Below, one piece after another: positions 2,952 to 20,250 of a DNA stretch of 33,807 nt (positions are counted from its first letter, which is position 1; each line of letters begins with the position of its first letter). Under the pieces are notes generated by a model that had not been told where the DNA came from, ran no database searches, and was given only the letters and a program-made list of their open reading frames with translations. The translations under genes were made by a program, and so were the position numbers. This DNA comes from Clostridia bacterium (GTDB lineage: Bacteria > Bacillota > Clostridia > Christensenellales > Borkfalkiaceae), in assembly GCA_017456665.1 (NCBI GenBank), contig JAFTIY010000104.1, positions 1 through 33,807 on the forward strand. Direction: 5' to 3'.

Positions 2952-2988
2952 TTAACTTTAACCTCATTAATTTTGTACGTATAGGTCA

Positions 2989-3008
2989 GCTTGCAAAAAA
3001 ACGCAAGC
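2989..3008. repeat. Inverted repeat upstream of the lipoprotein gene
   Basis: GCTTGC and GCAAGC arms flank an A-rich 8-base loop. The right side belongs to AACGCAAGCGTT, a LacI-operator-like near-palindrome. The repeat lies in the leader of the lipoprotein gene. It could be an RNA hairpin or an operator. No T run follows it on the transcribed strand, so it is not a good terminator. Confidence 0.35.
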
Positions 3009-3086
3009 GTTAACAGCTTTTTTTATTACTTTAACGGTAAACAAACTAAAAGCTGCAAAAAACAAACTTTGATTAAATTACAACTA

Positions 3087-3114
3087 CTGTCTGCGCCCTA
3101 ACGGACGCAGACAG
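3087..3114 (-). terminator. Stem-loop downstream of the two-LamG gene
   Basis: A perfect 9-bp stem (CTGTCTGCG paired with CGCAGACAG) encloses a 10-base loop 42 bp beyond the stop codon of the LamG gene. The transcribed strand continues with TAGTTGTAATTT rather than a strong U tract. It may be a weak terminator or a 3' stabilising hairpin that lowers readthrough into the lipoprotein gene. Confidence 0.5.
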
Positions 3115-3155
3115 AGTTAAGGTTATAGAACGAATTGGTTCTTATTGGTTAAAAA

Positions 3156-6050
3156 TTAGTCTTTTTTCTTAAATAATACGATAGAAGCGCCTGCTAAAAG
3201 AATTAATGAAAGCATAGAGCCGCTGCCGATAGCGCCCTTACAAGATTGAACGTTGCCTTCGCTAGTTGAGGTTTGTTCAGAATCACCGGGTTGTTCGGGA
3301 TTTTCAGGTTGTTCGGGTTGTTCGGGTTCTTCAACGTATTCTTTAAATCTTACTTCGATTTCGGTATCGGTTTCGATAATGATGCTGTAAACGCCTTCAA
3401 CAGCTTCAATAGCTTGGCCGTTTACTTCAACGTAATCAACAACGTAACCTTCAGCGGGAGTAACGTTAATAACTAAGGTTTCGCCACCCTTTGAAGAAGT
3501 GATGCCACCAACGTCAACGGTACCGTTTTCGCCTCTTACGTAAGCGTCTACAGAGTAAATAGCTTCAGCAAAGGTTGCGGTAACAACAGCGTCGCCTGCT
3601 ACTTTGAAGGTGTAAACTGCTCCGTCGGGAGCGATTTCTTCGCCGTTTACGTATACGTTGGTTGCAACGTAGTATTTAGCGGGAACGGGAGTGATGGTAA
3701 TAACGGTATCAATACCAGCCTTTTCAGCGCTGAATTCAACAGTACCGTTTTCCATTTCGCCAGCAGTAATTGAATATTGATAAGGAACGAAGGTTGCGGT
3801 TAAAACGATATCTTCGGTACCAACGGTAATAACGTATTCGCCATTTTCGTTAGCAGCAACTTCTTGACCGTTTGCATAAACCTTATCTAATACGTAGTGG
3901 GTAGCGGGTTTAACAGCTACTAAAACGTTGTCGCCTTCAAGGCCCCAAGTTTTTTCAGCTTCTAAAGTGCCGTTTTCCATTTCGCCGTTAGTGATTTCGT
4001 AAGAAGGAGTTACGGGAACTTCTTGAGTTACTTTAATTCTAGCGGTAGAAATAGCTGCGAGTGAATTACCTACGTTTTGAACGTAGCCTTGTGCCATCCA
4101 TTTGCCTTCTACTTCTTCAACAGCAGTCCAAACGATGGGAAGATTGATTTGTGATTTTTGTGCAGCAAGGTTAGAAAGAGTAGCTACTACGGTTGCATTG
4201 CCCATAAGAGATACTTTTTCATCGCTTGACATAGCTTCGTATAATTCAGCGGTAACAACCTTATCTTCTGCAAAGGTTAAAGTGGTATCAACGCTTTCAA
4301 TCCAAGATTCGGTTAATAAGCTGTTGGTTTTTAATTCGCCGTTGTTTTCGTAAACGTTAACTTGGTCAGCGGTCATTGCGAAGTCGTAAATAGCAACGTT
4401 ACCAACCGAACCAACGAAGTTCATAGGTCTACCTTCGTCCCAAATAGCTGCGCCACCGATAGAGAATCTTTGCATTGCAGAGTTAAGATCATAATCAGCA
4501 GGACAATCAACAGAAAGTTTTTGAGCGCCGTTAGCATAAACGGTAACCTTTCCGCCGGGTTGTACGGTTAAAACAACTGAACATACGCTTGCAGCCGTAC
4601 CTTTTTGAATTTCATATCCCCAGTATGCGTCACTCTTACCCATATCTGCACCTGCGGTGAATCTGAGTAAGTCGTCTTCGCCTGCATATTGGAACCACAT
4701 CCATTTGGTTGAAATCCAGTTATCAAGACCAAAGCCGATAGGAGTACACCAGTATTCAGAGCCTTGAACACCGTCTGCTTTTACGTCGAATGCAAGAGTG
4801 AAAGCCTTAATGTCGTTAGAGAAGTCGTCTTCTTCATTTAAATAAAGCATGCTGGTACCGTCGAAATGAACGCCGATATCATTTTTGGTGGGATAACCCA
4901 TAACGTGTAAGTCGTAGTTACCCATAGAGTCTTTACCGAGATTGTTTTCGTCAGCAAAGTCATATTTAGCGATAGGAGCTAAAGTTTTAGTTTCAGCAAT
5001 AAGAGCAATTTTACCGTATGCTTTAACGCCGTCGGGATTGTAAACGCTGGTTAAGTTACCAACTAACATCTTTTGTCCGTCAACAACTTCAACGCCCGTC
5101 CAGTTAACTAAACCTTTACGGGTTGCGCCTGATTGCATAGTAACGTCGATTGAAGAACGAGCAGGAGCAAGTTTAATGATTTCTTCATCGGTTGCAGTTT
5201 CTTCAACGATAATAGTGCTTGAATAGTCTGCAACTGCAGTTTTTGCCTTATCAACGTCAGCAGTGGTTAATTGGCCGTTTTTCCAATAAGTGGTCATTTC
5301 AGCTTCGCTCATAGCAAAGTCGTAAATGCTAACTGCGCCAACTTCGCCGTGGAATGCAGAATATTGGTTACCCCAAGTACAGTCGTTACCGATAGCAAAA
5401 CGAGTGTTACCGTCTGACATTGACCAATCAGCGTTAACGTCGTAAGAATATTTATTTACGCCGTCAATCCAAAGATTTGCCTTGCCGCCTACTTCAAAAG
5501 AAATAGTAACCTGGTAAGTAGTACCGGGAGTAGCAACCATTACTTCTTTACCCCAGTCACGACCGGTAGTTCCATCGGTTGTACCGTGTGAACTATAACG
5601 ACAAGTGTAAACGCTTCCACCGTCGGCATTTTGACCGATTGTTAACCAGTTCCATTTGCTAGCGCCCCAGTCATTCCAACCAAAGCCAATAACTTGTGCA
5701 CGGTTAGGAACATTTGCTCCGGGAGTCATTGTAAAGTTAAGCGTGTATGAACCTATTGTTTCACTTATATCGCTTTCCTCATTAGCCGCATAAATTGCAC
5801 CGCCTGCAAATAATGCACCGTTTGTGCCTTTAGATACTTCGCCTGTGGTAGCGAGATTGTAATTACCCATCAAATCTTTGCCGAGATCGTTTTCATCAGC
5901 AAAGTCGTACTTTGCGATCGGGTTAACCACGGTAGGTTGTACATCGTCTGCTTGAACTTTGTTTAAAGTTAAGCCGCCGATAACAGAGCTTACGGAAAGT
6001 GTTAAAGCGCATACTGCAACTAAAACGTTTTTCCATTTCTTTGTGAACAT
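3156..6050 (-). CDS. Surface protein with two LamG domains, three Gly-rich beta repeats and a Cys-containing C-terminal anchor
   Basis: The protein has 964 residues. ATG 6050 is preceded by AAAGGAGG at good spacing. Residues 1-35 form a signal peptide. Two tandem LamG-like domains (about 44-265 and 357-580) both begin with a near-identical PIAKYDFADEN-LGKD--MGNY segment, so they look like an internal duplication. Residues about 684-900 hold three roughly 70-residue repeats, each with a MENGT or ENGTV turn and a 'V-ATF' end, of the InlB/bacterial-repeat type. A Pro/Glu-rich linker (PEQPEQPENPEQP) follows. The tail has SCKGAIGSGS (Cys near 936), a hydrophobic helix and KKKD. There is no LPXTG motif. 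It probably sits on the cell surface and binds glycans. It is the first gene of a leftward group with the substrate-binding lipoprotein, and an AraC-type regulator is divergent from it. Confidence 0.85.
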   Translation of the reverse strand: MFTKKWKNVLVAVCALTLSVSSVIGGLTLNKVQADDVQPTVVNPIAKYDFADENDLGKDLMGNYNLATTGEVSKGTNGALFAGGAIYAANEESDISETIGSYTLNFTMTPGANVPNRAQVIGFGWNDWGASKWNWLTIGQNADGGSVYTCRYSSHGTTDGTTGRDWGKEVMVATPGTTYQVTISFEVGGKANLWIDGVNKYSYDVNADWSMSDGNTRFAIGNDCTWGNQYSAFHGEVGAVSIYDFAMSEAEMTTYWKNGQLTTADVDKAKTAVADYSSTIIVEETATDEEIIKLAPARSSIDVTMQSGATRKGLVNWTGVEVVDGQKMLVGNLTSVYNPDGVKAYGKIALIAETKTLAPIAKYDFADENNLGKDSMGNYDLHVMGYPTKNDIGVHFDGTSMLYLNEEDDFSNDIKAFTLAFDVKADGVQGSEYWCTPIGFGLDNWISTKWMWFQYAGEDDLLRFTAGADMGKSDAYWGYEIQKGTAASVCSVVLTVQPGGKVTVYANGAQKLSVDCPADYDLNSAMQRFSIGGAAIWDEGRPMNFVGSVGNVAIYDFAMTADQVNVYENNGELKTNSLLTESWIESVDTTLTFAEDKVVTAELYEAMSSDEKVSLMGNATVVATLSNLAAQKSQINLPIVWTAVEEVEGKWMAQGYVQNVGNSLAAISTARIKVTQEVPVTPSYEITNGEMENGTLEAEKTWGLEGDNVLVAVKPATHYVLDKVYANGQEVAANENGEYVITVGTEDIVLTATFVPYQYSITAGEMENGTVEFSAEKAGIDTVITITPVPAKYYVATNVYVNGEEIAPDGAVYTFKVAGDAVVTATFAEAIYSVDAYVRGENGTVDVGGITSSKGGETLVINVTPAEGYVVDYVEVNGQAIEAVEGVYSIIIETDTEIEVRFKEYVEEPEQPEQPENPEQPGDSEQTSTSEGNVQSCKGAIGSGSMLSLILLAGASIVLFKKKD

Positions 6051-7829: not shown

Positions 7830-7916
7830 AGTTTTGCTGTTTAATTTGTTAAAATTTATTCTTAACGTTTTTTATTGCTCGAGGTTAAAAAATATGCTCT
7901 ATATTAATAATTGCTA

Positions 7917-7945
7917 TTGACACCCCCTAACTTTGATGTTATAAT
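7917..7945 (+). promoter_or_regulatory. Strong sigma-A promoter of the phosphoesterase gene
   Basis: TTGACA, a 17-bp spacer and TATAAT, both hexamers consensus. The start codon at 7986 lies about 40 bp downstream of the -10. Confidence 0.85.
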
Positions 7946-7985
7946 ACGCTTGCCAAGTAAAAATTTAGTCATAAGGAGAAAAACG

Positions 7986-10900
7986 ATGTTTAAAACCTGG
8001 CGAAAATTACTTACCTACGTTTTTGCGTTTATGCTTGCAGTATCATGCTGCTTGGGTATTTTTGCGTTAAACGGGCAAAAAACAGTTACAGTTAGCGCAG
8101 TTGATTCTTCTAACATAGCAATTATAGAAGATTATCTCGATAAAGCTAACGAACTATCCGTGCAAAGCGAATACCAACAAAAATCAAAGGCGAGATTGGT
8201 AGTTTACTTAACCAACCTAATAGAAAATTTCAGTACGTTGAGCGGTAGCGAAAAAACGGCTTGTATGAACAACCTAAAGGCTACCTATTATCAGTATTAT
8301 AACGATTACCTTTACGGCGACGTACAAAAAAGCGAGCATATAATGTCGCTTGGCGTTATATCCGACCCACACGTTACCGCGGTTGATTACCCCTATAATT
8401 TTTATACTGCTCTTACCGACTTAAGAAATTTAAGACCGGAGCTTTCTGCAGTTATGGTAACGGGCGACCTTTCTGAAGACGGAGTTTCTGCCTATAACGA
8501 ACAAAACTCAAATCTAGATGATTACTACGATTTTATAACCAATTTAAATTATAAAAACATAGATGGCGAAAGCATTCCCTTTTTAAGCGTAATGGGCAAC
8601 CACGACGTAAGAGGACCTACTGCCGACGGCTACGGAGCAGATCACTATCAGCCCGCAGTTGATATGTATCTTGAGCGAGAAGGAGTAGATAGCTTATTCT
8701 TTGATAAATGGATTAACGGCTATCACTTTATTATGCTTAATACCACTCAATACGAGCGCGACGACTGCACGTTAAGCGCATCGTGTATTGCTTGGCTCGA
8801 TAAAGCTTTATCTGAAAATGAAGACGGAAGACCTATTTTCGTGCTTATTCACCAATATAAAGACGTTATTCACACCGACCAAAACGCGGCGTATACCTTT
8901 GAAGAGGTTATTGCCCGCCACCCTTCAGCAATAGTTCTTTCAGGCCACAACCACTACGGCTTTACCGTTGCCCCCATTGAGCAAGAAGGTAAGGGAACTT
9001 ACGTTAACATACCTACCATTCAAAAATCTAACGTTGGAACGTATAACGCTCCCGGATATTACGTAATAGACGTTTATAAAGAGGGCGTAGTTTTACAGGC
9101 AAGACTCTCACGCGAGCAGCAATGGGTGCCCGAATCAAACGTTGTAGCTCGCAACGAAAATTATGCAAACGTTGAACTATTCTCTGGTAAAACCGCTATT
9201 GTAGAAGAGCTTGCACATCAATTCGTAACCCTTGAAAAAGTTGACGCCGTTAACAGCGTTAGCGGTAAGGCTATAAAAATTAGCGCTGAAAACAATCAAA
9301 ACGCAACGGTAGTGCTTCCGATAATGGCAAAATCTACCGTTGAAGCCTACGAAGGCTACGCGATTTACGTTGAAAGCGACAAACCTGTAAAATTAGAAGT
9401 TGGCTCTGCCCTTTTAAAGCCAAACAGCCCTTATTACGTGCTCGAAGGCGAAATAGTTCAAAAAACTACCGGTGAAAACGGCGAGGTTGAAGCACCCGGC
9501 TGGGTTATTATTCCTAAAGACAGCTTTGACTCAAAAGCTCACCCCAATCCCTACCGCTACTTAAATATTTACCCCGCGGTTAACAGTACCGTTTACGTAG
9601 ACGCAGTTTGCTACTTCTTTGATTTAGACGTATTTATTGATTCTATCGCTAATATTACCTATTCATTCCAAAACGCTTTAGGCGAAACCATTTTAGAAGA
9701 ACAGGCAATTTTTGGCTCTGATTTGAACGTTCCCGCCGACCAAACCAAGGATGAAGACGCAGGCTATACCTACCAATTCGCAGGTTGGGATATAAACGGC
9801 GATGGCCAAGCTGATACCCTACCCCAATCGGTAAAGGGTAAATTTACCGCAAAACCGTTATTTACTGCTACTGCAAAGCAGTTCACTTATACCTTCTTAA
9901 ACGCTGACGGCTCTACTATATTATCGGTTACCGATTATTACGGCAACAAAATAGATATTCCCGAGTTGCAAGACCTTGAGGGCTGGGACACCGACGGCGA
10001 CGGCACTATTGAAGGCCTTTCGGGCTATATTGACGGCAACGTAACTGCAAAGGCTGTATTTAAAAATACGTCTAAAGAATACGAATACATTTTTAAATCT
10101 AAAGATGGATTCATTTACAAAAAGGGCTGGGTAAACGCAGACGAAAGTATGGTTATACCCACTAATCCTGTAAATAACGACCAAAACACACTTTTCGTTG
10201 GCTGGGATTTAAACGAAGATAACACACCCGACCAACTGCCCGAAAACGGAATTATTAACTCAAATCTTTATGCAACCGCTGTATTTTATACGCTTAACAC
10301 CTATCAAACCTACTGGCAGGCTTCAATGATTGGCGTTACCATGCAAAACGCTACTCAAGCCAGCGGCGAACACTTAAAATTACAAGCTCAATCGTGGGCA
10401 AGCTCCCCCACCGGCTCGGCTGTAGTTGCAAGCTGGAACGGAATGGGCTTAAAGGGCGAAAATAAAAAACAACTATCTTCCCCCTACTTTACTCTACCTA
10501 TTCCCACCGATAAAGGCTCTAACGGCTTTGCGCTATGGTTAGACGTTGGCGATAACGACGGCTATGCGTTTACCCTTTATAAGCAAAATAAGGCAATAAA
10601 CAGCGGCAACGTTTACGCATTGAGCACCGACGGCGAAACGTATACCTTAAACGCAAGCTCTGCAATTTCGCTGCCAAACTCCTTTAAAGGCTGGCTTTTA
10701 ATCCCCACTGCTTCATTCGGCTCGGCCGCTAATCTTGAAGAGGGGCAATACCTGCAAATATTGTTCGATTTTAACGCGGCAAGCACCGATACCGAAAAGC
10801 AAATAGCTTTTGGCGCTGCTATTCAGTTTAATAATTCCGTTCAAACGGTTATCGACAGCTTAAGCAAAAACTTCTTTAGCTTTACTAACTACGACGGAAG

Positions 10901-11654
10901 CGTTATCTCTTACGGAGTGCTTAACCAAACCACTCCCCTAAACGCTCCAACCGCACCCTCTCGCCCCAACGACAGCTATTACACTTATACCTTTGCCGGA
11001 TGGGATATTAACGGAGATAACGTGGCAGACGAGCTACCGCAATACTTAACCGCAAGCGTTTACGCTACTGCAGTTTACAACGTTGAAGCAGTTCAGTTTA
11101 CCTATAAATTCGTAGACGAAAATAATAACCTTTTACTTGAAAAAACGGCTGATTATAACTCATTAATTCTCCCGCTATTTAACTACAAAGGTAGCGTTGA
11201 CGAAAACCATATTTTAAAAATTACCTATCTCGATTACGAAGAAGGAATGCTTTTAACCGAAAACGTTACCTTTACCGTTAAGCTTGAAGAGATAAAAAAG
11301 ACCTTTACCTACAAGTTCTTGGTTGACGATTGGGTTTACGCTTACGGCACGGTTGAGTTTGATCAACCCGTTCCCAAGCCTCAAGATCCCGTTAAAGAAG
11401 GCTATGAATTTGTAAAATGGAAGGGATATAGCGAAGAAGATTTACTGTTTTACGACGACGAGTTTACCGCAATGTTTAAAGAAGCTGAAGAAATTCCTGA
11501 AGAAAACAGCTCTACCACTTCTTCTTCAATAAGCTCAAGCGAAGAGCAAAATACCCCCTCTGCTCTTCCCCTTATTTTAGGTATTAGCGCGGGCATTATC
11601 GTTATAGCCGTAATAGCAATATTAATCGTGCTTAAAAAACGCAAATCAAACTAA
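7986..11654 (+). CDS. Membrane-anchored calcineurin-like metallophosphoesterase with InlB-type repeats
   Basis: The protein has 1222 residues. ATG 7986 is chosen over an upstream in-frame start because AAGGAG (7973-7978) sits at the right distance and the signal peptide starts there; the upstream codons overlap the promoter. The metallophosphoesterase domain (about 118-370) shows all metal motifs: SDPH (D127, H129), TGDLSEDG (D161), GNHD (N205, H206, D207), an IHQ histidine and GHNH (H321, H323). It probably hydrolyses phosphoesters outside the cell. The remainder is beta-rich with several InlB/Flg_new-like repeats. Four of these contain GWD-NGD-like acidic loops (W near 601, 667, 740 and 1006). 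The end has a Ser/Glu-rich linker, a transmembrane helix and KKRK, with no LPXTG motif. The natural substrate is unknown. Confidence 0.88.
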   Translation: MFKTWRKLLTYVFAFMLAVSCCLGIFALNGQKTVTVSAVDSSNIAIIEDYLDKANELSVQSEYQQKSKARLVVYLTNLIENFSTLSGSEKTACMNNLKATYYQYYNDYLYGDVQKSEHIMSLGVISDPHVTAVDYPYNFYTALTDLRNLRPELSAVMVTGDLSEDGVSAYNEQNSNLDDYYDFITNLNYKNIDGESIPFLSVMGNHDVRGPTADGYGADHYQPAVDMYLEREGVDSLFFDKWINGYHFIMLNTTQYERDDCTLSASCIAWLDKALSENEDGRPIFVLIHQYKDVIHTDQNAAYTFEEVIARHPSAIVLSGHNHYGFTVAPIEQEGKGTYVNIPTIQKSNVGTYNAPGYYVIDVYKEGVVLQARLSREQQWVPESNVVARNENYANVELFSGKTAIVEELAHQFVTLEKVDAVNSVSGKAIKISAENNQNATVVLPIMAKSTVEAYEGYAIYVESDKPVKLEVGSALLKPNSPYYVLEGEIVQKTTGENGEVEAPGWVIIPKDSFDSKAHPNPYRYLNIYPAVNSTVYVDAVCYFFDLDVFIDSIANITYSFQNALGETILEEQAIFGSDLNVPADQTKDEDAGYTYQFAGWDINGDGQADTLPQSVKGKFTAKPLFTATAKQFTYTFLNADGSTILSVTDYYGNKIDIPELQDLEGWDTDGDGTIEGLSGYIDGNVTAKAVFKNTSKEYEYIFKSKDGFIYKKGWVNADESMVIPTNPVNNDQNTLFVGWDLNEDNTPDQLPENGIINSNLYATAVFYTLNTYQTYWQASMIGVTMQNATQASGEHLKLQAQSWASSPTGSAVVASWNGMGLKGENKKQLSSPYFTLPIPTDKGSNGFALWLDVGDNDGYAFTLYKQNKAINSGNVYALSTDGETYTLNASSAISLPNSFKGWLLIPTASFGSAANLEEGQYLQILFDFNAASTDTEKQIAFGAAIQFNNSVQTVIDSLSKNFFSFTNYDGSVISYGVLNQTTPLNAPTAPSRPNDSYYTYTFAGWDINGDNVADELPQYLTASVYATAVYNVEAVQFTYKFVDENNNLLLEKTADYNSLILPLFNYKGSVDENHILKITYLDYEEGMLLTENVTFTVKLEEIKKTFTYKFLVDDWVYAYGTVEFDQPVPKPQDPVKEGYEFVKWKGYSEEDLLFYDDEFTAMFKEAEEIPEENSSTTSSSISSSEEQNTPSALPLILGISAGIIVIAVIAILIVLKKRKSN

Positions 11655-11668
11655 ATAACTTATAAAAA

Positions 11669-11695
11669 AATGGTCGGAATCATTTTCCGACCATT
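11669..11695. terminator. Bidirectional terminator between convergent genes
   Basis: An 11-bp perfect stem (AATGGTCGGAA paired with TTCCGACCATT) has a 5-base loop, with A-rich DNA on the left and T-rich DNA on the right. It can end both the phosphoesterase transcript and the leftward six-gene lipid operon. Confidence 0.85.
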
Positions 11696-11718
11696 TTTCT
11701 TTGTTTTTATATAACTTT

Positions 11719-12672
11719 TTAAAAATATTTACTTAAAAATTCTTTAATTTCGCCATCGTATTTCTGCTTGTTCTCTGGGCGTAAATGTGAGTGCTTTCCG
11801 TATTCAAACCAAGCCAATTTTTTGTTCTCATGCGGAATTTTATCATATAATATTTGAGCCATTACGGGAAGAGAATATGCGTCTTCTCTGCTGTGAAGCA
11901 TAAGTATTGGCTTTTTAAGCTTGTGTATTATATCTATATTGCCTACCCTCATCGAATGCCCGGTAATAAGCTTAAACCATTGATCTACCATCTCTAAAAC
12001 GGGATGAATGGGCTTTTTAAGCTCTATCATATGATTTTTAAAGCTCTCGCTAAAATTGGGATACATTCCTTCTGCAATCATTCCGCCTATATAATCGGGG
12101 CAATTAGGCGAAGTAAGCGTCATAAGCGCGCACGAAGAGCCTATGCAAATTCCGTGCAGAACTATGTTTTTAACTCCGTATTCCTCGTGTAAAAATTTTG
12201 CCCAGCATAAAATATCTTTATGCTCCTCATACCCCAACGTGTTATACTTGCCGTCGCTTTTGCCGTGAGCCCTTTGATCTATAACCAAAACGTTAAACCC
12301 GCTTTCGGGATATGGCTCTGAAAAATAATACCCGTAAACGTGGGATTCTGTTCTGCCCGAAATAAAAATAAGCGCCTTATCGTAACCAAAATCGTAATAT
12401 TCACCGTAAAGGTTTATGCCCTCGTTTACTATATGCAAATCCTTTTTATACTGCTTGTTTTTTAAGCTCCACTCAAAGCCCTCGCCGTACATGGCGTTTT
12501 GAACTGCGTTATCTGAAGGAACTACGCCCTTCCACTTGCTTTTTTTAGTGCGCTTTAAATGTATTACAAGCAAGATATACGCAACAGCGTATATTGGCGC
12601 AATTATTAAAATAGCAGCTGCTAAAATGCAAAGCAACACGAATATTGCTATGCCCAAGGGGGTTTCAAACAT
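11719..12672 (-). CDS. Membrane-anchored alpha/beta hydrolase with a GxCxG nucleophile elbow
   Basis: The protein has 317 residues. Residues 5-38 are one long hydrophobic N-terminal segment followed by a basic patch (KRTKKSKWK), so the hydrolase domain probably faces the cytoplasm or lies close to the membrane. The fold is supported by 'LIFISGRTESH' (oxyanion region), 'VLVIDQRAHGKSDG', the nucleophile elbow HGICIGSS (Cys176), D264 in SREDAYSLP and a His in GKHSHL (H294 or H296). The usual elbow has Ser; here the codon is TGC, as in dienelactone-hydrolase-type GxCxG enzymes. It is the last gene of the fak operon, 12 bp after the acyltransferase, with an AAAGGAG site. It may cleave thioester or ester-linked acyl groups, for example as a lysophospholipase or thioesterase; this is inference from context. 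Confidence 0.85.
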   Translation of the reverse strand: MFETPLGIAIFVLLCILAAAILIIAPIYAVAYILLVIHLKRTKKSKWKGVVPSDNAVQNAMYGEGFEWSLKNKQYKKDLHIVNEGINLYGEYYDFGYDKALIFISGRTESHVYGYYFSEPYPESGFNVLVIDQRAHGKSDGKYNTLGYEEHKDILCWAKFLHEEYGVKNIVLHGICIGSSCALMTLTSPNCPDYIGGMIAEGMYPNFSESFKNHMIELKKPIHPVLEMVDQWFKLITGHSMRVGNIDIIHKLKKPILMLHSREDAYSLPVMAQILYDKIPHENKKLAWFEYGKHSHLRPENKQKYDGEIKEFLSKYF

Positions 12673-12684
12673 AAAAATCTCCTT

Positions 12685-13326
12685 TTAATTGATGCCTTTT
12701 ACCTTTTTATCCAGCTCGCTTCTGAGCTCGTGAACCTTTTTTTCTACTATGCCGTTTAGCATAATAAGCTGTTCTTTAGTAGGATTTAAACTGCTGCAAT
12801 AATCGGTTAAGTATATTTTTTTGCCGATTATAACGTGAGTGCGCTTTAAAAAACCGTAATTTCCGTCGGTAACAACGGGTAATATGGGCACGTTTGCACG
12901 CAGAGCAATTAGAACGTAGCTTATTTTAAACTCATGAATATTGCCATCTGGCGTGTTGCGCGCCTCGGGAAAAATTTGCACCAATCCGCCGTTTTCTAAA
13001 ACCTCAACGCTTTCATCCATAAAGCTCATGCTCTTGCATTCTCTATCAGCCTTTATTCCGCCGTGAAACTTGGTTAAAAGGTAAAAGATTTTGTTCTTAT
13101 TAAACACGAATTCAGAAAGCACTACGTAAAGCTTCCTAAACGGAAAAAGATAGGCGTTTACAAAGTAGTCGAACACGCAAAAGTGATTGCTTACCACAAG
13201 CGCCCCGCCCTTTATAAACCTATTTTGCTCTTTTTTATCTTCATAATAGGTTTTTCGCTTAAAAAACGCAAGCTGTAACGGCCACGCTAAAAGCATACCT
13301 ATACACCTAAAAATATCGTAAATCAT
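12685..13326 (-). CDS. PlsC-like 1-acylglycerol-3-phosphate O-acyltransferase
   Basis: The protein has 213 residues. It shows the acyltransferase motif I NHFCVFD (H48 and D53, the HX4D catalytic pair) and FPEARNTPDG (119-128) in place of the usual FPEGTRS. The Gly-to-Ala change at the glycerophosphate-binding motif suggests altered acceptor preference. An N-terminal hydrophobic stretch (about 8-22) fits a membrane-associated enzyme. The family transfers acyl groups from acyl-ACP or acyl-CoA to lysophosphatidate or other lysolipids. The start codon overlaps the stop of the upstream ligase-ACP gene (ATGA, 13323-13326), a sign of translational coupling. The natural acyl donor may be the ACP domain of that neighbour; this is inference. 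Whether it is the cell's main plsC or a specialised remodelling enzyme cannot be decided here. Confidence 0.85.
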   Translation of the reverse strand: MIYDIFRCIGMLLAWPLQLAFFKRKTYYEDKKEQNRFIKGGALVVSNHFCVFDYFVNAYLFPFRKLYVVLSEFVFNKNKIFYLLTKFHGGIKADRECKSMSFMDESVEVLENGGLVQIFPEARNTPDGNIHEFKISYVLIALRANVPILPVVTDGNYGFLKRTHVIIGKKIYLTDYCSSLNPTKEQLIMLNGIVEKKVHELRSELDKKVKGIN

Positions 13327-15266
13327 AGCTCGTTAATCATTTGTGTGATTTTCTTTTCAAAATCGTTTACAGAATAGCCAAAATCGCTACCCTCTTCATA
13401 CTTGAGAGTTATGCCGTATTTTTCGTTAATTTCGCCTATTAACGTAAAGTAATCTAAACTGCTGCCGCCAAGATCTAACATAAAATTGGCGTTGCAGTCT
13501 ATTTTGCTTTTATCGGCATCTAACAGCCTTGCAAATAGCTCGATCAAAAACTGTTTAACTTCGCTACCTTCTTCATTACAGTTGCAAACAGGGCTACCTT
13601 CTTCAAAATTTTTAAATAGGCGCACCTTATTTTCGCTTATAAGCCCTTTAAGATAAGAGCGGCTTACCTTTATGCTGCCCTTTGTCATTATCTCATCGTA
13701 AGTGAAATATATCTCTTTAACTTTATACGACTGCGGAAGGCTTGCGTTGCAATCTTCTATCTCCCGCGCAAGTTGACTTATTTGCTCGCCGGTAATTCCC
13801 TTTGCTACTTGAACAACGAGCATAAGCTTGCTGTTGTCTTCGCTTCCTAAAACGCTGAAGTTTACAGCGCTGGAAAGTGAAAAGCTCTTTTCTGCCAAAT
13901 CGGGATTTAAGTTTTCGCCGTCGTCGCTAAATACTATATCCGAAATTCTTCCCTCTATATAATATCTTCCGCTTTTGTCAACGCGCACCACGTCGCCCGT
14001 ATCAAACCAGCCGTCGTTTATAATTTCTTTGCCGTCTACTATTAGCCTTTTACAAACCGAGCTTCCCTTAACCAAAAGCTGATTTTTATCACCGATTTTA
14101 TACTCAACCGAATCAAAAGGTAGGCCTATAGCACCGTTAACGCGTATTTTAATATTTTTAGAGCACTCTACGGAGGGTATGCAAACCTCGCTCATTCCAT
14201 ATCCGTTTACCAGCACGTATCCCAGCGAATTTATAAGCTTTAACGTAGACTGCTTAATAAAACTTCCGCCCGAAATACAAAAGGTTACGCTTTTACCAAA
14301 AAGCTTTTTTCGCACGCTATCAAGCATTTTTACCGCTACGGCTTTGCCCAAATGCGGAAATACTCTCTGTAGCTTATACGAAAGTTCTATGGCACTAAAA
14401 AACCTGTTACGTTCCCCTTCTTTTTGAGCCTTCACCTTTGATAAAAGCCCTTTTTCAAATGAGTGCCAAAGTAGCGGAACTGCAAAAATATGGGTTATTT
14501 TATGATTGCGCACAGTACGCAAAATGCTTTCTGCCGACATATCGGGTAAAAATACGAAGCTTGCACCAAAAAGCGAATACCATAAAAATACCGCCACCAA
14601 GCCAAAAACGTGATAAAGGGGCAAAAACATAAGCTGCTTTATAGCTCCCTTATACGGTTTAATTATATCCCTATTCAGTTTTGATATACCCTCTACGTTT
14701 ATAAGCTGCGCGCTAATTTCGCTACCCGTATATATACAAATCTTTTTACTTAAAGTAGTGCCGCTCGTACTGATTGCAATTTGGTTTTCAAATGGAGGAA
14801 AATCCACCGCTGCCACTTTTTGCCCGCACTCAATTACCTCTTGGTAATGGTAGCATTTGCCGTTAAAATCTAAATTTTCGCAACCTATTTTTATAATAGC
14901 CGAAGTATTTAAGGTATTCAAAATTTCGTTGGTAAAATGAACGGGCTGGCGCAAGTTTATTAAATAGGGCTTGTTGCCGCTTTTTAAAATAGCCCAAAAG
15001 GCAATCATCCACTGCAAGCAATTTTCGCCGCACAGCGCGATATACCCGTTAGTTACTCCTATTTGAGATATTATGCCCTTAGCCAAATCGTTTATCAATG
15101 CTTGTGCTTGCGCATACGTGCAAAAAACCTTACGCGTCATAGTGGGCTGCTCGGTCATTACCAAATCGCCGTTAGAAAAAACTATATCGTAAATATCTTT
15201 AAAGCGTCTTTTACTAAGTGAAAGACGCTTTACGTTTTGCATTATTCTTTTATAAGTTTTATTCAT
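13323..15266 (-). CDS. AMP-forming acyl ligase fused to a C-terminal acyl carrier protein
   Basis: The protein has 647 residues. The adenylation domain (about 25-550) shows STSGTTLSKK (166-175, a variant of the usual TSGTTGxPK), YGMSE (356-360), DGWFDTGD (418-425), YYIEGR (435-440) and a candidate catalytic lysine at 533 in GSIKVSR. A Cys/Glu-rich linker (about 555-570) joins an acyl carrier domain (about 571-647) with the phosphopantetheine site LGGSSLD (Ser603). The enzyme should activate a carboxylic acid, probably a fatty acid, as acyl-AMP and load it on its own carrier arm. Its ATG follows the transporter stop codon directly (TAA then ATG), and its end overlaps the acyltransferase gene. 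The position between FakAB, a transporter and a PlsC-like enzyme favours acyl recycling. An aryl or amino acid substrate is not excluded. Confidence 0.87.
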   Translation of the reverse strand: MNKTYKRIMQNVKRLSLSKRRFKDIYDIVFSNGDLVMTEQPTMTRKVFCTYAQAQALINDLAKGIISQIGVTNGYIALCGENCLQWMIAFWAILKSGNKPYLINLRQPVHFTNEILNTLNTSAIIKIGCENLDFNGKCYHYQEVIECGQKVAAVDFPPFENQIAISTSGTTLSKKICIYTGSEISAQLINVEGISKLNRDIIKPYKGAIKQLMFLPLYHVFGLVAVFLWYSLFGASFVFLPDMSAESILRTVRNHKITHIFAVPLLWHSFEKGLLSKVKAQKEGERNRFFSAIELSYKLQRVFPHLGKAVAVKMLDSVRKKLFGKSVTFCISGGSFIKQSTLKLINSLGYVLVNGYGMSEVCIPSVECSKNIKIRVNGAIGLPFDSVEYKIGDKNQLLVKGSSVCKRLIVDGKEIINDGWFDTGDVVRVDKSGRYYIEGRISDIVFSDDGENLNPDLAEKSFSLSSAVNFSVLGSEDNSKLMLVVQVAKGITGEQISQLAREIEDCNASLPQSYKVKEIYFTYDEIMTKGSIKVSRSYLKGLISENKVRLFKNFEEGSPVCNCNEEGSEVKQFLIELFARLLDADKSKIDCNANFMLDLGGSSLDYFTLIGEINEKYGITLKYEEGSDFGYSVNDFEKKITQMINEL

Positions 15267-16652
15267 TTATGCTACAGCAGACTCCTCTTTTTCTACGTCG
15301 GGTTCAACTTTACCCATTTTTGACATTCTGTTTGATAAGAAAAAGGTCATCACGAATGCAATCATGCAAAATCCTGCAACGAAGAATGGGAAAAACGCCA
15401 TTAAAGGCCCTGCAGTAAGCTCTGTTCCGCCTAAAGTTCTTATTGCAACTAAAACCACCTGCGTTGCAAGCGAAGCCGATACAGCCTCAAATAACCCCTG
15501 CACCGCAAAGTACATAGAAGAAGCACAAACCTCACCCTTCTTGTTTTCGTCTGAAGCGAGCTGGGCGGGTACCGTGTAAGTGATAGAGAAAAATGCGCCT
15601 ATCGAAAACGATACTATAAGTGCACACGCTATTGCCACCGGCATTTTTAGCGCAGTGGGAACTACGTGGCACAGCATCATAAGTGAAATACCTACCGAAA
15701 AGGTTAATAGTATGTATTGGAAGGCGAATCTCAAACATTTCTTCTTTAAAATCTTGTTGTATAAAAGCAAGGTAAATGGAACGGGCGCAAACGCGCTTGC
15801 CATTACGAAGGTCATATTAAGCCCTTCTCCCACGTTTGAAAAAAATACGCTTATGCCGCCGAGAAATAGTTGTAAACCCAAATTCATAACGGCAACTATG
15901 CAAAGCCAATAAACGAACTGTTTGTTTTTAAAAGCAAATTTGAGAGAGGTTATAAAGCTTACTCTCTGTTGCTCTATCTCGCCCTCACTTACTCCATCGA
16001 GAGTTGATTTTTCTTTGATAAGGAAAAGAGGTATAAGCATAGTTAGCGCAAGAGGCATAAATATAAGTGCAACTACCCTAATATTAACTCCAAAACCTAC
16101 GAAAAGGGGCACTAACGCAAAGTTTAAGCTAAAATACACAACGTCGCAAATTGATTTTACAGTAGAAATAAAGTTTCTATCTTGCTCGTTGTCTACTATC
16201 TCGGCAAAGGTTGCGTAATACGAAACCATAGTAAGAGTATATCCCGAATAGAATATTCCAAGCAAAATAACGAACCATACGGTATTAAGCAACGAAAACT
16301 CAGCGTGTTGCAAGGGGAATAAAAATAAAACGTACGCAATAAGTAGTGGAATATAGCCCATTAAAATTGCAGGTCTTCTACGCCCCCAGCGAGTGCGTAA
16401 ATTATCGGTAAAGGTAGAAAGCGGAATATCTACCAAACCGTCGAATATTTTGATTATCATCGAAAGAACCATCCACACACCTACGACTATAAGCGTGCGG
16501 TTTTCATACGTCCACGATTGAATATTTGCATCAAACCCATCGGTAATAAGCCCGTTACAAAGATGCGTGCCCAATATTACGTTTAACATATTGAGTCCAA
16601 GCCCCGAGCAACCGTATAACAGCATTTGCCATCTTTTGGTTAACTTTTTCAT
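15267..16652 (-). CDS. MFS_2/GPH-type (MelB-like) cation-coupled transporter
   Basis: The protein has 461 residues with about 12 predicted membrane segments. The family signature is 'DGLVDIPLSTFTDNLRTRWGRRRP' near residues 72-95, split here only by position: the acidic D-x3-D and the WGRRRP loop are typical of MelB/GPH carriers. GPH members classically take up sugars with Na+ or H+, but the same superfamily includes animal MFSD2A, which carries lysophosphatidylcholine. The gene lies inside a lipid-related operon (21 bp after fakA, directly abutting the ligase-ACP gene), so a lysolipid or fatty-acid-derived substrate is plausible; this is inference. A strong AAAGGAGG site precedes ATG 16652. 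The C-terminus is short, acidic and cytoplasmic. Confidence 0.85.
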   Translation of the reverse strand: MKKLTKRWQMLLYGCSGLGLNMLNVILGTHLCNGLITDGFDANIQSWTYENRTLIVVGVWMVLSMIIKIFDGLVDIPLSTFTDNLRTRWGRRRPAILMGYIPLLIAYVLFLFPLQHAEFSLLNTVWFVILLGIFYSGYTLTMVSYYATFAEIVDNEQDRNFISTVKSICDVVYFSLNFALVPLFVGFGVNIRVVALIFMPLALTMLIPLFLIKEKSTLDGVSEGEIEQQRVSFITSLKFAFKNKQFVYWLCIVAVMNLGLQLFLGGISVFFSNVGEGLNMTFVMASAFAPVPFTLLLYNKILKKKCLRFAFQYILLTFSVGISLMMLCHVVPTALKMPVAIACALIVSFSIGAFFSITYTVPAQLASDENKKGEVCASSMYFAVQGLFEAVSASLATQVVLVAIRTLGGTELTAGPLMAFFPFFVAGFCMIAFVMTFFLSNRMSKMGKVEPDVEKEESAVA

Positions 16653-16673
16653 AAATCTCCTCCTTTCTTTACA

Positions 16674-18317
16674 CTATTCAAACGATATAACCATATCGAA
16701 AAATTCATCGGTCGTTTGAACTACCGTAAGCTCGGTATATACGTATTTTTGCGATACGTATGCGCAAATTTTGTCTATTTCGCTTTGATTAGCTTTTGAA
16801 CTGGCAAACAAAGTTACAACGTCTTTAAACTGTTTTTCCATAACGGCATCGATAGCCTCGCATGCAACAGTCGCATAGCTATTACCAACAGATAAAAGCT
16901 CGCTTCCGGTAAATGCAAAAATCTCGCCTACACCTATTTTCTTTCCATCGTAATTAGAACTTTTTGTGGCTACCGATAAAGTTACGGTTATTAAGTTTGC
17001 AGTTACCGACCGTATATTTTCAAGAACTAACGAAATATCCTCTTCTTCAAAATCAATCATCGGCAAAACTGCGTAGCATTCCGAATCAGATTGAGTATTT
17101 ACTACGCTAACTTCAGCCTTTTCATAAAGCTTTGCCGCTTGAAGTGCCGCAAGATAGGTATTTTTGCCGTTTGCAAACAATAGAATTTTTTGAGAACTAG
17201 CCATATCGAACGCAACTATAAACTCCTTTGCCGACGGGGGGCAAAGATTATCGCTCATAATCACTAAATCTGCACCCATGTTTGCAAAATATTCCTTCAT
17301 AGAAAGATCGTGAGCAACTGCAATTACGGCAAATTCTCCTTTGGGCTGTTCGTTAAATACCTCAACCTCTCTTTCTTGGCGAGCTTCGTGGTGCTGTACG
17401 CTCATATTTTCTACCTTAACGGCCAAAAATTCGCCGTATTTATGGCAAAGCTCGAACACCTTTTCAGGTAACTTCGTATGCACGTGCAGCTTAACCTTTT
17501 CATCTGCAACCGAAAGCACGATAGAATCGCCCAATAAACTCAATTGCTCCTTTAGCAATTGTAAATCAAAGGTCTCTTTTTCATCGGTTAACTGCACTAA
17601 AAGTTCAGTGCAATAGCCGTATTCAAAAACGCTACTGCGATTAAATGCTGAAAAATCGACGTTTTGAGGCGTGCTTTCGCTATGAGCCGGGGCTAAAATT
17701 TCGCCACGCAAATATTTTTGCATTCCTTCAAGAACGTAAACTATCCCCGCTCCGCCGGCATCTACTACTCCCGCCGATTTTAACACCGGCAAAAGATTGG
17801 GAGTGTTTTCAAGCGATAGCCTTGCTTTTATTAAAAAGTGGTCTATAGCATCGTTAATCGAGGTTATCTCGCCATTTTCGATTTTTGCATGAACGTACTC
17901 GCTAGCCTCCCTAATAACGGTAAGCAACGTGCCTTCAACCGGCATAGCAACTGCGCCGTACGCACATTCAACGCCCTTTTTAAAGGCTGATGCGAGCATT
18001 TTGCAATCTGCCTCTTCTAGTAAAAAGAAGCTTTCTGAAATGCCTTTAAAAAACTGCGAGGTAATAACCCCCGAATTTCCCCTAGCACCAAAAATTATCG
18101 CACTTGCAAAATTTTTAGCCGCTTCGGCAAGCGACTGATTTTTATCCTTAATTGCAAAATATCCGTTTTGCAAGGTTAAAATCATATTAGTTCCGGTATC
18201 ACCGTCTGGCACGGGAAAAACGTTAAGACCGTTTACTCGGTCACGGTAAAGAACTAAATTTCGTATGCCGTAATCTATTAAATTGTGGTACAATTGACCG
18301 TTTATCGTATGTATCAT
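16674..18317 (-). CDS. fakA: Fatty acid kinase catalytic subunit FakA (DAK2 domain)
   Basis: The protein has 547 residues, the usual length of Firmicutes FakA. The N-terminal DAK2/DhaL-like kinase domain has PDGDTGTNM (37-45, Mg-ATP site), GARGNSGVITSQ (77-88) and GVVDAGGAG (183-191). The middle domain keeps YGYCTELL (Cys236) and KLHVHT (His278 and His280), which correspond to the conserved Cys and His pair of FakA. The C-terminal domain is DegV-like. FakA phosphorylates fatty acids held by FakB to give acyl-phosphate, which enters phospholipid synthesis through PlsX/PlsY. It starts 2 bp after the fakB stop, with AAGGA inside the end of fakB, so the two are translated together. Annotations as 'dihydroxyacetone kinase' for this family are misleading. 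Confidence 0.9.
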   Translation of the reverse strand: MIHTINGQLYHNLIDYGIRNLVLYRDRVNGLNVFPVPDGDTGTNMILTLQNGYFAIKDKNQSLAEAAKNFASAIIFGARGNSGVITSQFFKGISESFFLLEEADCKMLASAFKKGVECAYGAVAMPVEGTLLTVIREASEYVHAKIENGEITSINDAIDHFLIKARLSLENTPNLLPVLKSAGVVDAGGAGIVYVLEGMQKYLRGEILAPAHSESTPQNVDFSAFNRSSVFEYGYCTELLVQLTDEKETFDLQLLKEQLSLLGDSIVLSVADEKVKLHVHTKLPEKVFELCHKYGEFLAVKVENMSVQHHEARQEREVEVFNEQPKGEFAVIAVAHDLSMKEYFANMGADLVIMSDNLCPPSAKEFIVAFDMASSQKILLFANGKNTYLAALQAAKLYEKAEVSVVNTQSDSECYAVLPMIDFEEEDISLVLENIRSVTANLITVTLSVATKSSNYDGKKIGVGEIFAFTGSELLSVGNSYATVACEAIDAVMEKQFKDVVTLFASSKANQSEIDKICAYVSQKYVYTELTVVQTTDEFFDMVISFE

Positions 18318-18319
18318 CG

Positions 18320-19249
18320 CTATTCCTTAATGATATTGCTCATTATTTCTTTTTCTGCGGTTAAATCGTCGGTAACGGGAGCGCCAAGGTAATAAACACC
18401 AATCATTCCCGGCCCAATGTTAGCACCACAGCCTGCATAAACGTCGGTAACGTATACCTTTTTAGGATTGAGCTCAATCAATTTTTCTTTTAGCGTGTTA
18501 GCGTAAAGCTCTCTGTTAGAGTGAGCAATAAGCAGGTATTGCTCTTCTATATTTTCAGCCGTGCGTTTAACGTATTCAGCAGTAACGTCAAGCGCCTTGC
18601 CTATACCTTTAACCTTGGTTAATACGGTAGTATAACCGTCGGCATTGCAATCGCCCATCGGCTTAACACCGGCAAAATTGCCCATTATAGCCTTACCCAT
18701 AGTAATTCTTCCACGGCGGGCAACGAAAATAAGATCGTCGATGGGGCCCATTTGATGCACTCTGATTTTATTTTGCTCAAGCCAAGCAATAACCTCATCA
18801 AAGCTCTTACCTTCATTCTTTAAAATGTGTGCATATAAGGTTAAAAGGCCTATACCGCCCGACATGCGAAATGAATCAAAACAATATATTTGTGCTTCGG
18901 GATAGTTTTTCTTTATCTCTTGAGCAGCGTTGCAAGCAAAATTGTAGGTGGAGCTGATTTTTGAAGAAATCGAAACACTGATAACCCCAATCCCCTCTTT
19001 TACGTATTTTTCAAATGCTTCATAGTATTCTGCCGGTGAAGGAGGTGCTGTGGTAATTTTACACTTTTTATTAGAGAGCGCCCTATAATATTCTTCACGG
19101 GTAAAGTTATCCCACTCTAAATCGGTTAAATAATCTCTGCCGTCGCTAAAATGCACGTGCCCGCGAACGTAATCGTTCATACCGACGTCTTGTCTTATTT
19201 GTTCACTAAGATCGCAAGTACAATCGGGTAAAATAACAAAATCCCTCAT
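18320..19249 (-). CDS. fakB: Fatty-acid-binding protein FakB (DegV family)
   Basis: The protein has 309 residues. Typical DegV features are LPDCTCDL near the N-terminus (variant of DSTxDL), ITTAPPSPAEY (65-75), SISSKISSTYN (93-103; SSxLSGTY in many members), ARRGRITMGKA (178-187) and GANIGPGMIGV near the C-terminus. The family holds one fatty acid between two alpha/beta domains and presents it to FakA. The usual His before the GPG loop is replaced (GANIGPG). It is the first gene of a six-gene operon and directly precedes fakA. AAAGGAG precedes the ATG. Chain specificity cannot be deduced from the sequence. Confidence 0.88.
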   Translation of the reverse strand: MRDFVILPDCTCDLSEQIRQDVGMNDYVRGHVHFSDGRDYLTDLEWDNFTREEYYRALSNKKCKITTAPPSPAEYYEAFEKYVKEGIGVISVSISSKISSTYNFACNAAQEIKKNYPEAQIYCFDSFRMSGGIGLLTLYAHILKNEGKSFDEVIAWLEQNKIRVHQMGPIDDLIFVARRGRITMGKAIMGNFAGVKPMGDCNADGYTTVLTKVKGIGKALDVTAEYVKRTAENIEEQYLLIAHSNRELYANTLKEKLIELNPKKVYVTDVYAGCGANIGPGMIGVYYLGAPVTDDLTAEKEIMSNIIKE

Positions 19250-19297
19250 AAAATCTCCTTTTAAGTAGCGCGATATATAACATCGCTCCCCTCATAG

Positions 19298-19315
19298 GCG
19301 CACGCATGCGTGCGC
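19298..19315. promoter_or_regulatory. 18-bp perfect palindrome in the fak operon leader
   Basis: GCGCACGCATGCGTGCGC is perfectly self-complementary and very G+C-rich for this region. It lies between the operon promoter (19345-19374) and the fakB start, in the 5' leader. It may be an operator for a dimeric repressor or an RNA hairpin. A second imperfect stem (GCGAT with ATCGC) follows closely at about 19269-19286. Confidence 0.55.
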
Positions 19316-19344
19316 TAAATATTTATTTATATAAAACAATCTTT

Positions 19345-19374
19345 ATTATACATCGGTTTTTCGACTTTTGTCAA
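19345..19374 (-). promoter_or_regulatory. Sigma-A promoter of the fakB-fakA operon
   Basis: On the minus strand TTGACA (19369-19374), an 18-bp spacer and TATAAT (19345-19350). Both hexamers are consensus. The predicted leader is about 90 nt. The remaining intergenic DNA up to 19540 is A+T-rich with no gene. Confidence 0.85.
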
Positions 19375-19620: not shown

Positions 19621-20250
19621 TTAACTGTTTTCACCCGATTCGTCATCATCAGCTTGCATTTTTGATTGATATGCAGCCATAACGAAATCAAGCCTTTCTA
19701 AAATTTTTTCTTTTCCGTAACCGTTTTCGTTTGAAATCGCTATCATATTGCCCTCGCCCAAGCAAAGCCTGTTTGCTATTGCATTTGCAGTAGGCTTAAT
19801 TCTCGTTTTAGAAAGCTTATCCGCTTTAGTGCAAATAACCGTAAAAGGAATAATATAGTGGTTCAAATAGTTAATAAAATCGATATCGTCGGCATTTGGC
19901 TCACGCCTGATATCTAAAAGTAAAAAGGCGTGATCTAAATTTTTGTTATCGGCAAAAAAGCTTTCTATCGTTTTTGCCCATTTAAGCTTTTCGCCCTTAG
20001 AAACCTGAGCAAAGCCGTACCCCGGAAGATCGGCAATAACAAACTGCTCAAAATCAAAATAATTAACCAGTCGAGTTCTGCCCGGATCGCGCGAGGTGCG
20101 CGCAAGCTTATTGCGGTTTGCAATCATATTAATAAACGAACTTTTACCTACGTTGCTTCTTCCGCAAACGGCAATTATAGGTTTATCAAAATGCATAAAT
20201 CCGCTTTTATCTGCCGCCGACTTTAAAAATGTGGCGTTTTTTATAATCAT
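19621..20250 (-). CDS. engB: Ribosome biogenesis GTPase EngB (YsxC/YihA)
   Basis: The protein has 209 residues, a normal family length. It carries GRSNVGKSS (P-loop G1), the TSRDPGRTR segment (G2 region, residues about 52-60), DLPGYGFA (G3), TKAD (G4) and a 'AISNENGYG' G5-like loop. EngB is an essential GTPase that acts late in 50S subunit assembly. It follows lon on the same strand with a 62-bp gap that has no terminator, matching the lon-ysxC order seen in Bacillus. AAGGAAAG precedes ATG 20250. The acidic C-terminal tail (ADDDESGENS) is not conserved in the family. Motif copies A and B flank this gene in opposite orientations. Confidence 0.93.
   Translation of the reverse strand: MIIKNATFLKSAADKSGFMHFDKPIIAVCGRSNVGKSSFINMIANRNKLARTSRDPGRTRLVNYFDFEQFVIADLPGYGFAQVSKGEKLKWAKTIESFFADNKNLDHAFLLLDIRREPNADDIDFINYLNHYIIPFTVICTKADKLSKTRIKPTANAIANRLCLGEGNMIAISNENGYGKEKILERLDFVMAAYQSKMQADDDESGENS

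Follow-up and report, generated by a model that had tools for sequence, protein, structure and literature searches.

A conserved six-gene operon joining FakAB to a carrier, a ligase-ACP, an acyltransferase and a hydrolase: a candidate acyl-salvage and lysolipid re-acylation module

Introduction

Bacteria without fatty acid synthesis must build their membranes from the acyl chains that surround them. Gram-negative bacteria have the LplT–Aas system; the acquisition of chains by Gram-positive bacteria from lyso-lipids, as opposed to free fatty acids, is undescribed in the papers we searched. The 33,807-nt stretch of clostridial DNA analyzed here (the window) puts this problem in a concrete form. 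A FakA and a FakB gene sit in one operon with an MFS_2 carrier, an acyl ligase with its own acyl carrier domain, an acyltransferase and an alpha/beta hydrolase. What is such a set for, in bacteria that already have an ordinary FakAB pair? The answer we favor, at a probability of about one in two, is a module, in bacteria without de novo fatty acid synthesis, that is dedicated to acyl salvage and lysolipid re-acylation. Our best reading would make it a Gram-positive analogue of LplT–Aas lysolipid recycling joined to a specialized FakAB. With one evident candidate per step in a conserved operon (carrier, activation, re-acylation, release and phosphorylation), how Gram-positive bacteria obtain chains from lyso-lipids becomes directly testable.

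The six-gene operon

The six open reading frames all lie on the minus strand, running from 19249 down to 11719 in the order FakB, FakA, MFS_2 carrier, ligase/ACP, acyltransferase and alpha/beta hydrolase, with successive intergenic distances of 2, 21, 0, −4 and 12 bp. The operon is real: the initial annotation had its coordinates, gaps and gene names right, and its domain assignments for all six genes are borne out by Pfam and NCBIfam. The single shared promoter it proposed is also there, a sigma-70-type TTGACA-N18-TATAAT ahead of fakB (19345..19374, minus strand) that matches the consensus at 12 of 12 positions and ends about 95 bp from the fakB start; promoter-like sites can be seen by eye before fakB in several relatives as well. 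Between the −10 box and fakB, within an AT-rich leader, lies a perfect GC-rich 18-bp palindrome, GCGCACGCATGCGTGCGC (19298..19315), present once in the window against 0.01 copies expected. It is possibly an operator or a leader hairpin. As a conserved operator we rejected it, the palindrome being absent upstream of the modules in seven relatives, and an Rfam search of the whole window gave no match.

A strong 14-bp hairpin with A/T flanks (11666-11698) closes the operon and is probably a bidirectional terminator, common to the operon and a convergent gene. This downstream neighbor (7911-11654) encodes a surface phosphoesterase, a predicted 1247-aa surface protein with repeated GWDINGDG segments (a weak match to the Listeria–Bacteroides repeat). 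Two large minus-strand ORFs of 598 and 964 aa, within 1155-6050, have no Pfam match over cut-off. On the upstream side an EngB-like GTPase gene, on the same strand as the operon, has its stop at 19621.

A gene set that recurs

Relatives were searched with the ligase, and with the carrier at order, class and phylum level, and the surrounding DNA was read; the gene-neighbor survey sampled about 1,100 genomes. The identical six-gene order occurs in three other families of the class (L073, L074 and L075, the last with its fakB cut by the contig start), the proteins being 42–70% identical to those of the window; for L073 the identities in operon order are 66, 50, 70, 49, 53 and 55%. The same order minus the ligase is found at L047, L056, L076 and L077, and at L057 FakB-FakA-hydrolase is divergent from MFS-acyltransferase. 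Five module forms are without the ligase, a fact that counts against lysolipid salvage. At L076 the acyltransferase (8511-9152) and FakA (10509-12164) are each split into two ORFs, which suggests frameshifts or assembly errors.

A second layout, FakB-MFS-FakA-hydrolase (L043, L048 and L051–L055), is directly adjoined upstream by genes in the order ligase-acyltransferase-acyltransferase-ligase2-ACP-LRAT(-PPTase)-hydrolase. One or more genes of this long layout are missing from L053–L055, and no LRAT was detected in the long-layout locus of L051. Shorter forms and 10–11-gene forms turn up in about 15 further genomes. Across the order and class samples, fakA and/or fakB adjoin the carrier in 17 of the 19 loci whose carrier is at least about 42% identical; the carriers of the two exceptions, L078 and L079, are 42–43% identical and have other neighbors. 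The initial annotation had proposed a search for this gene order in other genomes, and had considered that relatives might carry the genes at unrelated loci. The search found the opposite, the genes being kept together in many genomes, and recurrence in other families rules out a chance adjacency of the six. The annotation did not know the arrangement as a described system, and none of the papers on FakAB with acyl-ACP synthetases and lysophospholipids that we searched describes it.

The module's distribution is patchy. Counting the window's own genome in the first two samples, carrier matches came from 21 of 396 genomes of the order (E limit 1e-30) and 10 of 391 of the class (1e-50); apart from that genome, the phylum sample yielded 0 of 397 (1e-60). 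A near-complete genome of the same genus, G001, had no carrier match. Scanning a named genome collection produced a single relative, a MAG labelled Erysipelotrichaceae (L034), with genes for hydrolase, FakB, FakA, a 190-aa protein, ligase-ACP, a double acyltransferase and LRAT; the 190-aa protein, without a Pfam match, is by its position a putative PPTase.

The own genome holds a paralogous cluster on another contig (L035:1-7495, contig C35) in the order ligase-carrier-acyltransferase-acyltransferase-ligase2-ACP-LRAT, the LRAT lying at the contig edge. Its parts are a ligase-ACP, a second ligase, a free ACP, two acyltransferases and an MFS_2 carrier extended at its C terminus by about 200 residues. 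Clusters of this type recur as a unit (L036, L041, L042, L059, L060, L062, L066, L070 and L081). LRAT fused to a 4′-phosphopantetheinyl transferase domain, and linked to ligases and ACPs, was observed at L043:12553-13581 and L041:14265-15266.

These long forms bring in our main rival explanation. The genes could be a cluster that makes or remodels a specialized lipid such as an acylated glycolipid or aminolipid. Two ligase/ACP pairs and the acyltransferases would then build the product, FakAB would supply acyl-phosphate, and the MFS_2 carrier would export the product or import a head group. The long form adds a second ligase, a free ACP, a second acyltransferase, further hydrolases and an LRAT-domain protein that is in many cases a fusion with a phosphopantetheinyl transferase, and it does resemble a biosynthetic cluster that activates its own ACP. 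The patchy distribution, down to a near-complete genome of the same genus without a comparable carrier, is of a piece with this. But no linked ketosynthase, glycosyltransferase or aminotransferase was seen in loci with annotated neighbors, and the ligase is present less consistently than the FakAB-MFS-hydrolase core. We consider such a cluster unlikely on balance, although it is the alternative we take most seriously.

A second FakAB with an altered FakB

The first gene of the operon (18320-19249, minus strand) encodes a FakB-like member of the DegV/EDD family (PF02645, 167.7 bits, 4.6e-49; TIGR00762, 180 against a cut-off of 99.7). Against the FakB1 equivalog NF038249 it falls below cut-off, at 83 of 350. 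FakB1 of S. aureus holds the fatty acid carboxylate by Thr62, Ser95, Ser171 and His270, and its Arg173 packs onto the acyl chain (PMC8892158). The module FakB does not have this four-residue network. His270 becomes Asn277, and Asn (in the motif NxGPG) occupies the position in 19 of 19 module FakBs, whereas 26 of the 27 FakBs sampled outside the module keep His; the sole non-His residue among those others is a Thr, in L072, near another MFS_2 gene. At the Ser171 position the module FakBs have Arg, Lys or Gln where Gly or Ser is found elsewhere, while the Thr and Ser positions of the network are mostly kept.

Judged by these residues, the module FakBs are a distinct subfamily with a predicted change at the ligand-head site. 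Their sequences mark them as FakB-like, and as putative rather than established fatty acid FakBs. The original claim that FakA and FakB here phosphorylate exogenous fatty acids therefore stands as far as the domains go and falls short for a canonical FakB. With Asn for His in every module member, that activity should be presumed of the subfamily rather than taken as given. A bolder idea comes from the same Asn and from the basic residue beside the ligand head: the module FakB might not carry free fatty acids at all, but take another acyl ligand, or a chain direct from the Cys-nucleophile enzyme described below. We think it rather doubtful. Were it true, acyl groups would pass from imported lyso-lipids to acyl-phosphate or ACP with no free fatty acid intermediate.

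FakA itself (16674-18317, minus strand) is of the module type, with DAK2, middle and C-terminal domains (PF02734/PF21645/PF13684). It exceeds the family cut-off (TIGR03599, 457.1 bits against 396.1) and lies below that of the narrower FakA_VfrB equivalog NF038248 (352 of 975). Aligned to solved FakA chains, its metal/nucleotide motif DGDTGTN is intact; D38, G39, D40, T41, G42 and N44 are near-invariant over 19 sequences, as are Cys236, His278 and His280. A maximum-likelihood tree groups the nine FakAs of the six-gene type in one clade (100/100) and those of the long type in another (93/84), each separate from the main clade of housekeeping FakAs. A single clade of all module FakAs, with support of only 56/70, we did not accept.

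Could the pair be no more than a second copy of the general FakAB route for fatty acid uptake, with lipid housekeeping genes in loose linkage around it? The intact FakA and FakB domains would fit, as would the PlsX found in every host tested and the PlsY found in nearly all. Set against them are the different ligand-head network, Asn in all module FakBs where nearly all the others have His; the separate, fully supported clade of six-gene-type FakAs; and partner genes conserved alongside across families. A plain duplicate is, to our minds, improbable.

Hosts without fatty acid synthesis

The case for salvage gains further from the hosts. FabF was over cut-off in 0 of 15 genomes, the only strong match being in G363, by a search that was positive in 13 of 14 control genomes. 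A FabH-type domain is absent from 16 of 18 genomes and present in 2, one of them the own genome. There, judging from translations, the FabH-like gene sits among acyl-CoA dehydrogenase, electron-transfer flavoprotein and thiolase-like genes, an apparent acyl-CoA/ETF/thiolase operon, and we rejected it as evidence of FASII. PlsX was found in 15 of 15 genomes, PlsY in 13 of 14 and ACP in 18 of 18. Immediately after plsX in the own genome come genes that read as RNase III and SMC, and neither fabD nor fabG intervenes. Absences from that genome, which is just 61% complete, would by themselves mean little; the absence argument rests on genomes at least 90% complete. Because these hosts are largely without FabF and FabH, and have PlsX, PlsY and ACP, their acyl chains probably come from outside.

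Every module genome tested, apart from G115 (70% complete), encodes a second FakA of housekeeping type in addition to the module's own; in the four module-free genomes FakA is single-copy. With this second FakA, PlsX, PlsY and ACP in hosts without FabF or FabH, the module is very probably an addition to the ordinary FakAB–PlsX–PlsY route. Acyl acquisition is most needed by hosts without fatty acid synthesis, a point against the specialized-lipid cluster. In hosts that already have housekeeping FakAB and PlsX, salvage by itself leaves a second set unexplained, and FASII is missing also from relatives without the module; both points count against lysolipid salvage. Conserved linkage, in hosts without FabF and FabH, nonetheless gives good support to the initial description of the operon as a dedicated lipid salvage or remodelling module.

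The carrier

The MFS_2 carrier (15267-16652, minus strand; PF13347, 3.3e-27) belongs to the GPH/MelB–MFSD2A family. A PDB sequence search returned no match at E ≤ 1, so the fold comparison alone speaks. The first Foldseek match of its model (pLDDT 84.9) is MFSD2A with bound lysophosphatidylcholine, 7mjs. MFSD2A and MelB nevertheless tie as nearest folds, both at a Foldseek E of 1.8e-9 and with VIA-align Z scores of 32.4 and 33.3, respectively, and this tie counts against lysolipid salvage. Against the MFS profile MelB has an E value of 1.5e-8 and LplT one of 0.042.

The carrier has the MFS_2 fold and cation site seen in MFSD2A-type symporters: D71, D75 and T139 correspond to the MelB cation residues D55, D59 and T121 and are kept in all 18 module carriers. 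None of the MelB galactoside residues D19, D124, W128 and R149 is retained. Conservation of the cation site extends widely through MFS_2 and that of the sugar residues is confined to MelB orthologues (PMC8329300), so loss of the latter is no proof of a lipid substrate. We predict from these residues a cation-coupled carrier that is not a MelB-type galactoside carrier; a canonical sugar symporter is disfavored, if not decisively.

Side by side with this stands the possibility of acylated sugar or glycoside uptake, in which the carrier would import a glycoside, the hydrolase deacylate it, and FakAB or the ligase recover the chain. The GPH sugar-symporter family to which the MFS_2 carrier belongs (although TIGR00792 is below cut-off) lends it something, as does locus L078 (1777-5186), where the genes on either side of a carrier with 42% identity to the module's encode a ROK-family kinase and an amidohydrolase. 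Those neighbors suggest that the L078 carrier takes a small polar substrate and that related carriers may differ in what they move, and they too count against lysolipid salvage. The module, however, has neither a glycosidase nor a sugar kinase, and every one of the MelB sugar-binding residues is gone. We rate acylated sugar uptake as very improbable.

Ligase-ACP, acyltransferase and hydrolase

An AMP-forming acyl ligase with a C-terminal acyl carrier domain (13323-15266, minus strand; PF00501, 7.2e-34; PF00550, 1e-7) follows the carrier. Its A10-type Lys533 and carrier Ser603 are invariant in 13 sequences, and with both intact the protein is a predicted acyl-ACP former; its scores against curated families come nowhere near an equivalog cut-off. 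The PlsC-superfamily acyltransferase (12685-13326, minus strand; PF01553, 4.7e-17) has its NHx4D at residues 47-53 and PEARN as motif III. Across relatives this motif is mostly PE(G/A)-R, with K, H or Y in some members. It is like the FPEGRI of E. coli Aas and unlike the FPEGTR of E. coli PlsC, and the protein falls short of PlsC itself (TIGR00530, 53.6 of 102.95 bits; PEARN, not PEGTR). Aas is found both by the acyltransferase profile (3e-14) and by the ligase profile (3.6e-10).

The alpha/beta hydrolase (11719-12672, minus strand; PF12146, 4.6e-11) has an N-terminal hydrophobic helix (5-39) and, in a model of pLDDT 94.1, is closest in fold to the P. furiosus esterase Pf2001 (Z 32.2, rmsd 2.2 over 264 residues, 24% identity). 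Its triad is Cys176-Asp264-His294. Instead of the GxSxG of serine hydrolases, all 17 core hydrolases have a Cys nucleophile, in GxCxG or, at L057, CxCxG; the accessory hydrolases encoded in the long clusters carry Ser at this position. Cys nucleophiles in the alpha/beta fold are known from acyl-transferring enzymes and hydrolases alike. The module enzyme may then act as a thioesterase or acyltransferase and not as a simple lipase, and a suitability for acyl transfer would also serve a specialized-lipid cluster. Of the release step assigned to this gene in the initial annotation, the alpha/beta hydrolase domain holds good, the plain lipase reading is weakened, and release becomes one possibility.

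A working model

How would an acyl-salvage and lysolipid re-acylation module operate? The carrier, driven by a cation gradient, would bring a single-chain lipid to the inner leaflet, most likely a lysophospholipid or similar lyso-lipid. The ligase would adenylate a free fatty acid and load it onto its own ACP domain, from which the Aas-like acyltransferase would hand the chain to the lyso-lipid to make a two-chain membrane lipid. The membrane-anchored Cys-His-Asp hydrolase would remove acyl chains from lipids, either releasing them as free acid or passing them on by acyl transfer, and the module FakB and FakA would turn the removed chains into acyl-phosphate for PlsX/PlsY. The direction of transport, the lyso-lipid substrate and the order of steps are what we infer around the observed genes.

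Comparison with known systems

The closest known logic, which the initial annotation did not name, is LplT–Aas lysophospholipid recycling. In that E. coli system lysophospholipids are carried inward by LplT and re-acylated by Aas, which is both acyl-ACP synthetase and acyltransferase (PMC13170283). Like aas-lplT, the module combines in one operon a transporter, a putative acyl-ACP-forming ligase and a PlsC-superfamily acyltransferase, the last with HX4D and an Aas-type motif III, and both enzymes are detectably homologous to Aas. In the module, however, ligase and acyltransferase are separate proteins, the ligase has its own ACP, the transporter is an MFS_2 protein and no relative of LplT, and FakA, FakB and an alpha/beta hydrolase are added. 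With neither the fusion nor LplT, it is not an LplT–Aas system.

With the FakAB plus PlsX–PlsY route for exogenous fatty acids in Gram-positive bacteria (PMC10146087), the module shares the FakA architecture, the FakB/DegV fold and hosts that have the downstream PlsX and PlsY. It differs in being a second copy, in its Asn for His270 and a basic residue or Gln at the Ser171 position, and in its company of carrier, ligase-ACP, acyltransferase and hydrolase. The carrier resembles the lysophosphatidylcholine symporter MFSD2A in its MFS_2 fold, first Foldseek match and Asp/Asp/Thr cation site, but is only about 14–16% identical to it, and MelB matches equally well. The hydrolase has its nearest fold in Pf2001 and the Hydrolase_4 lipases, yet carries Cys in the nucleophile elbow where they have GxSxG. 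What is new here is a FakB subfamily defined by its altered ligand-head site, together with invariant active-site changes in several module proteins that set them apart from the textbook systems. The module may work like both LplT–Aas and fatty acid FakAB.
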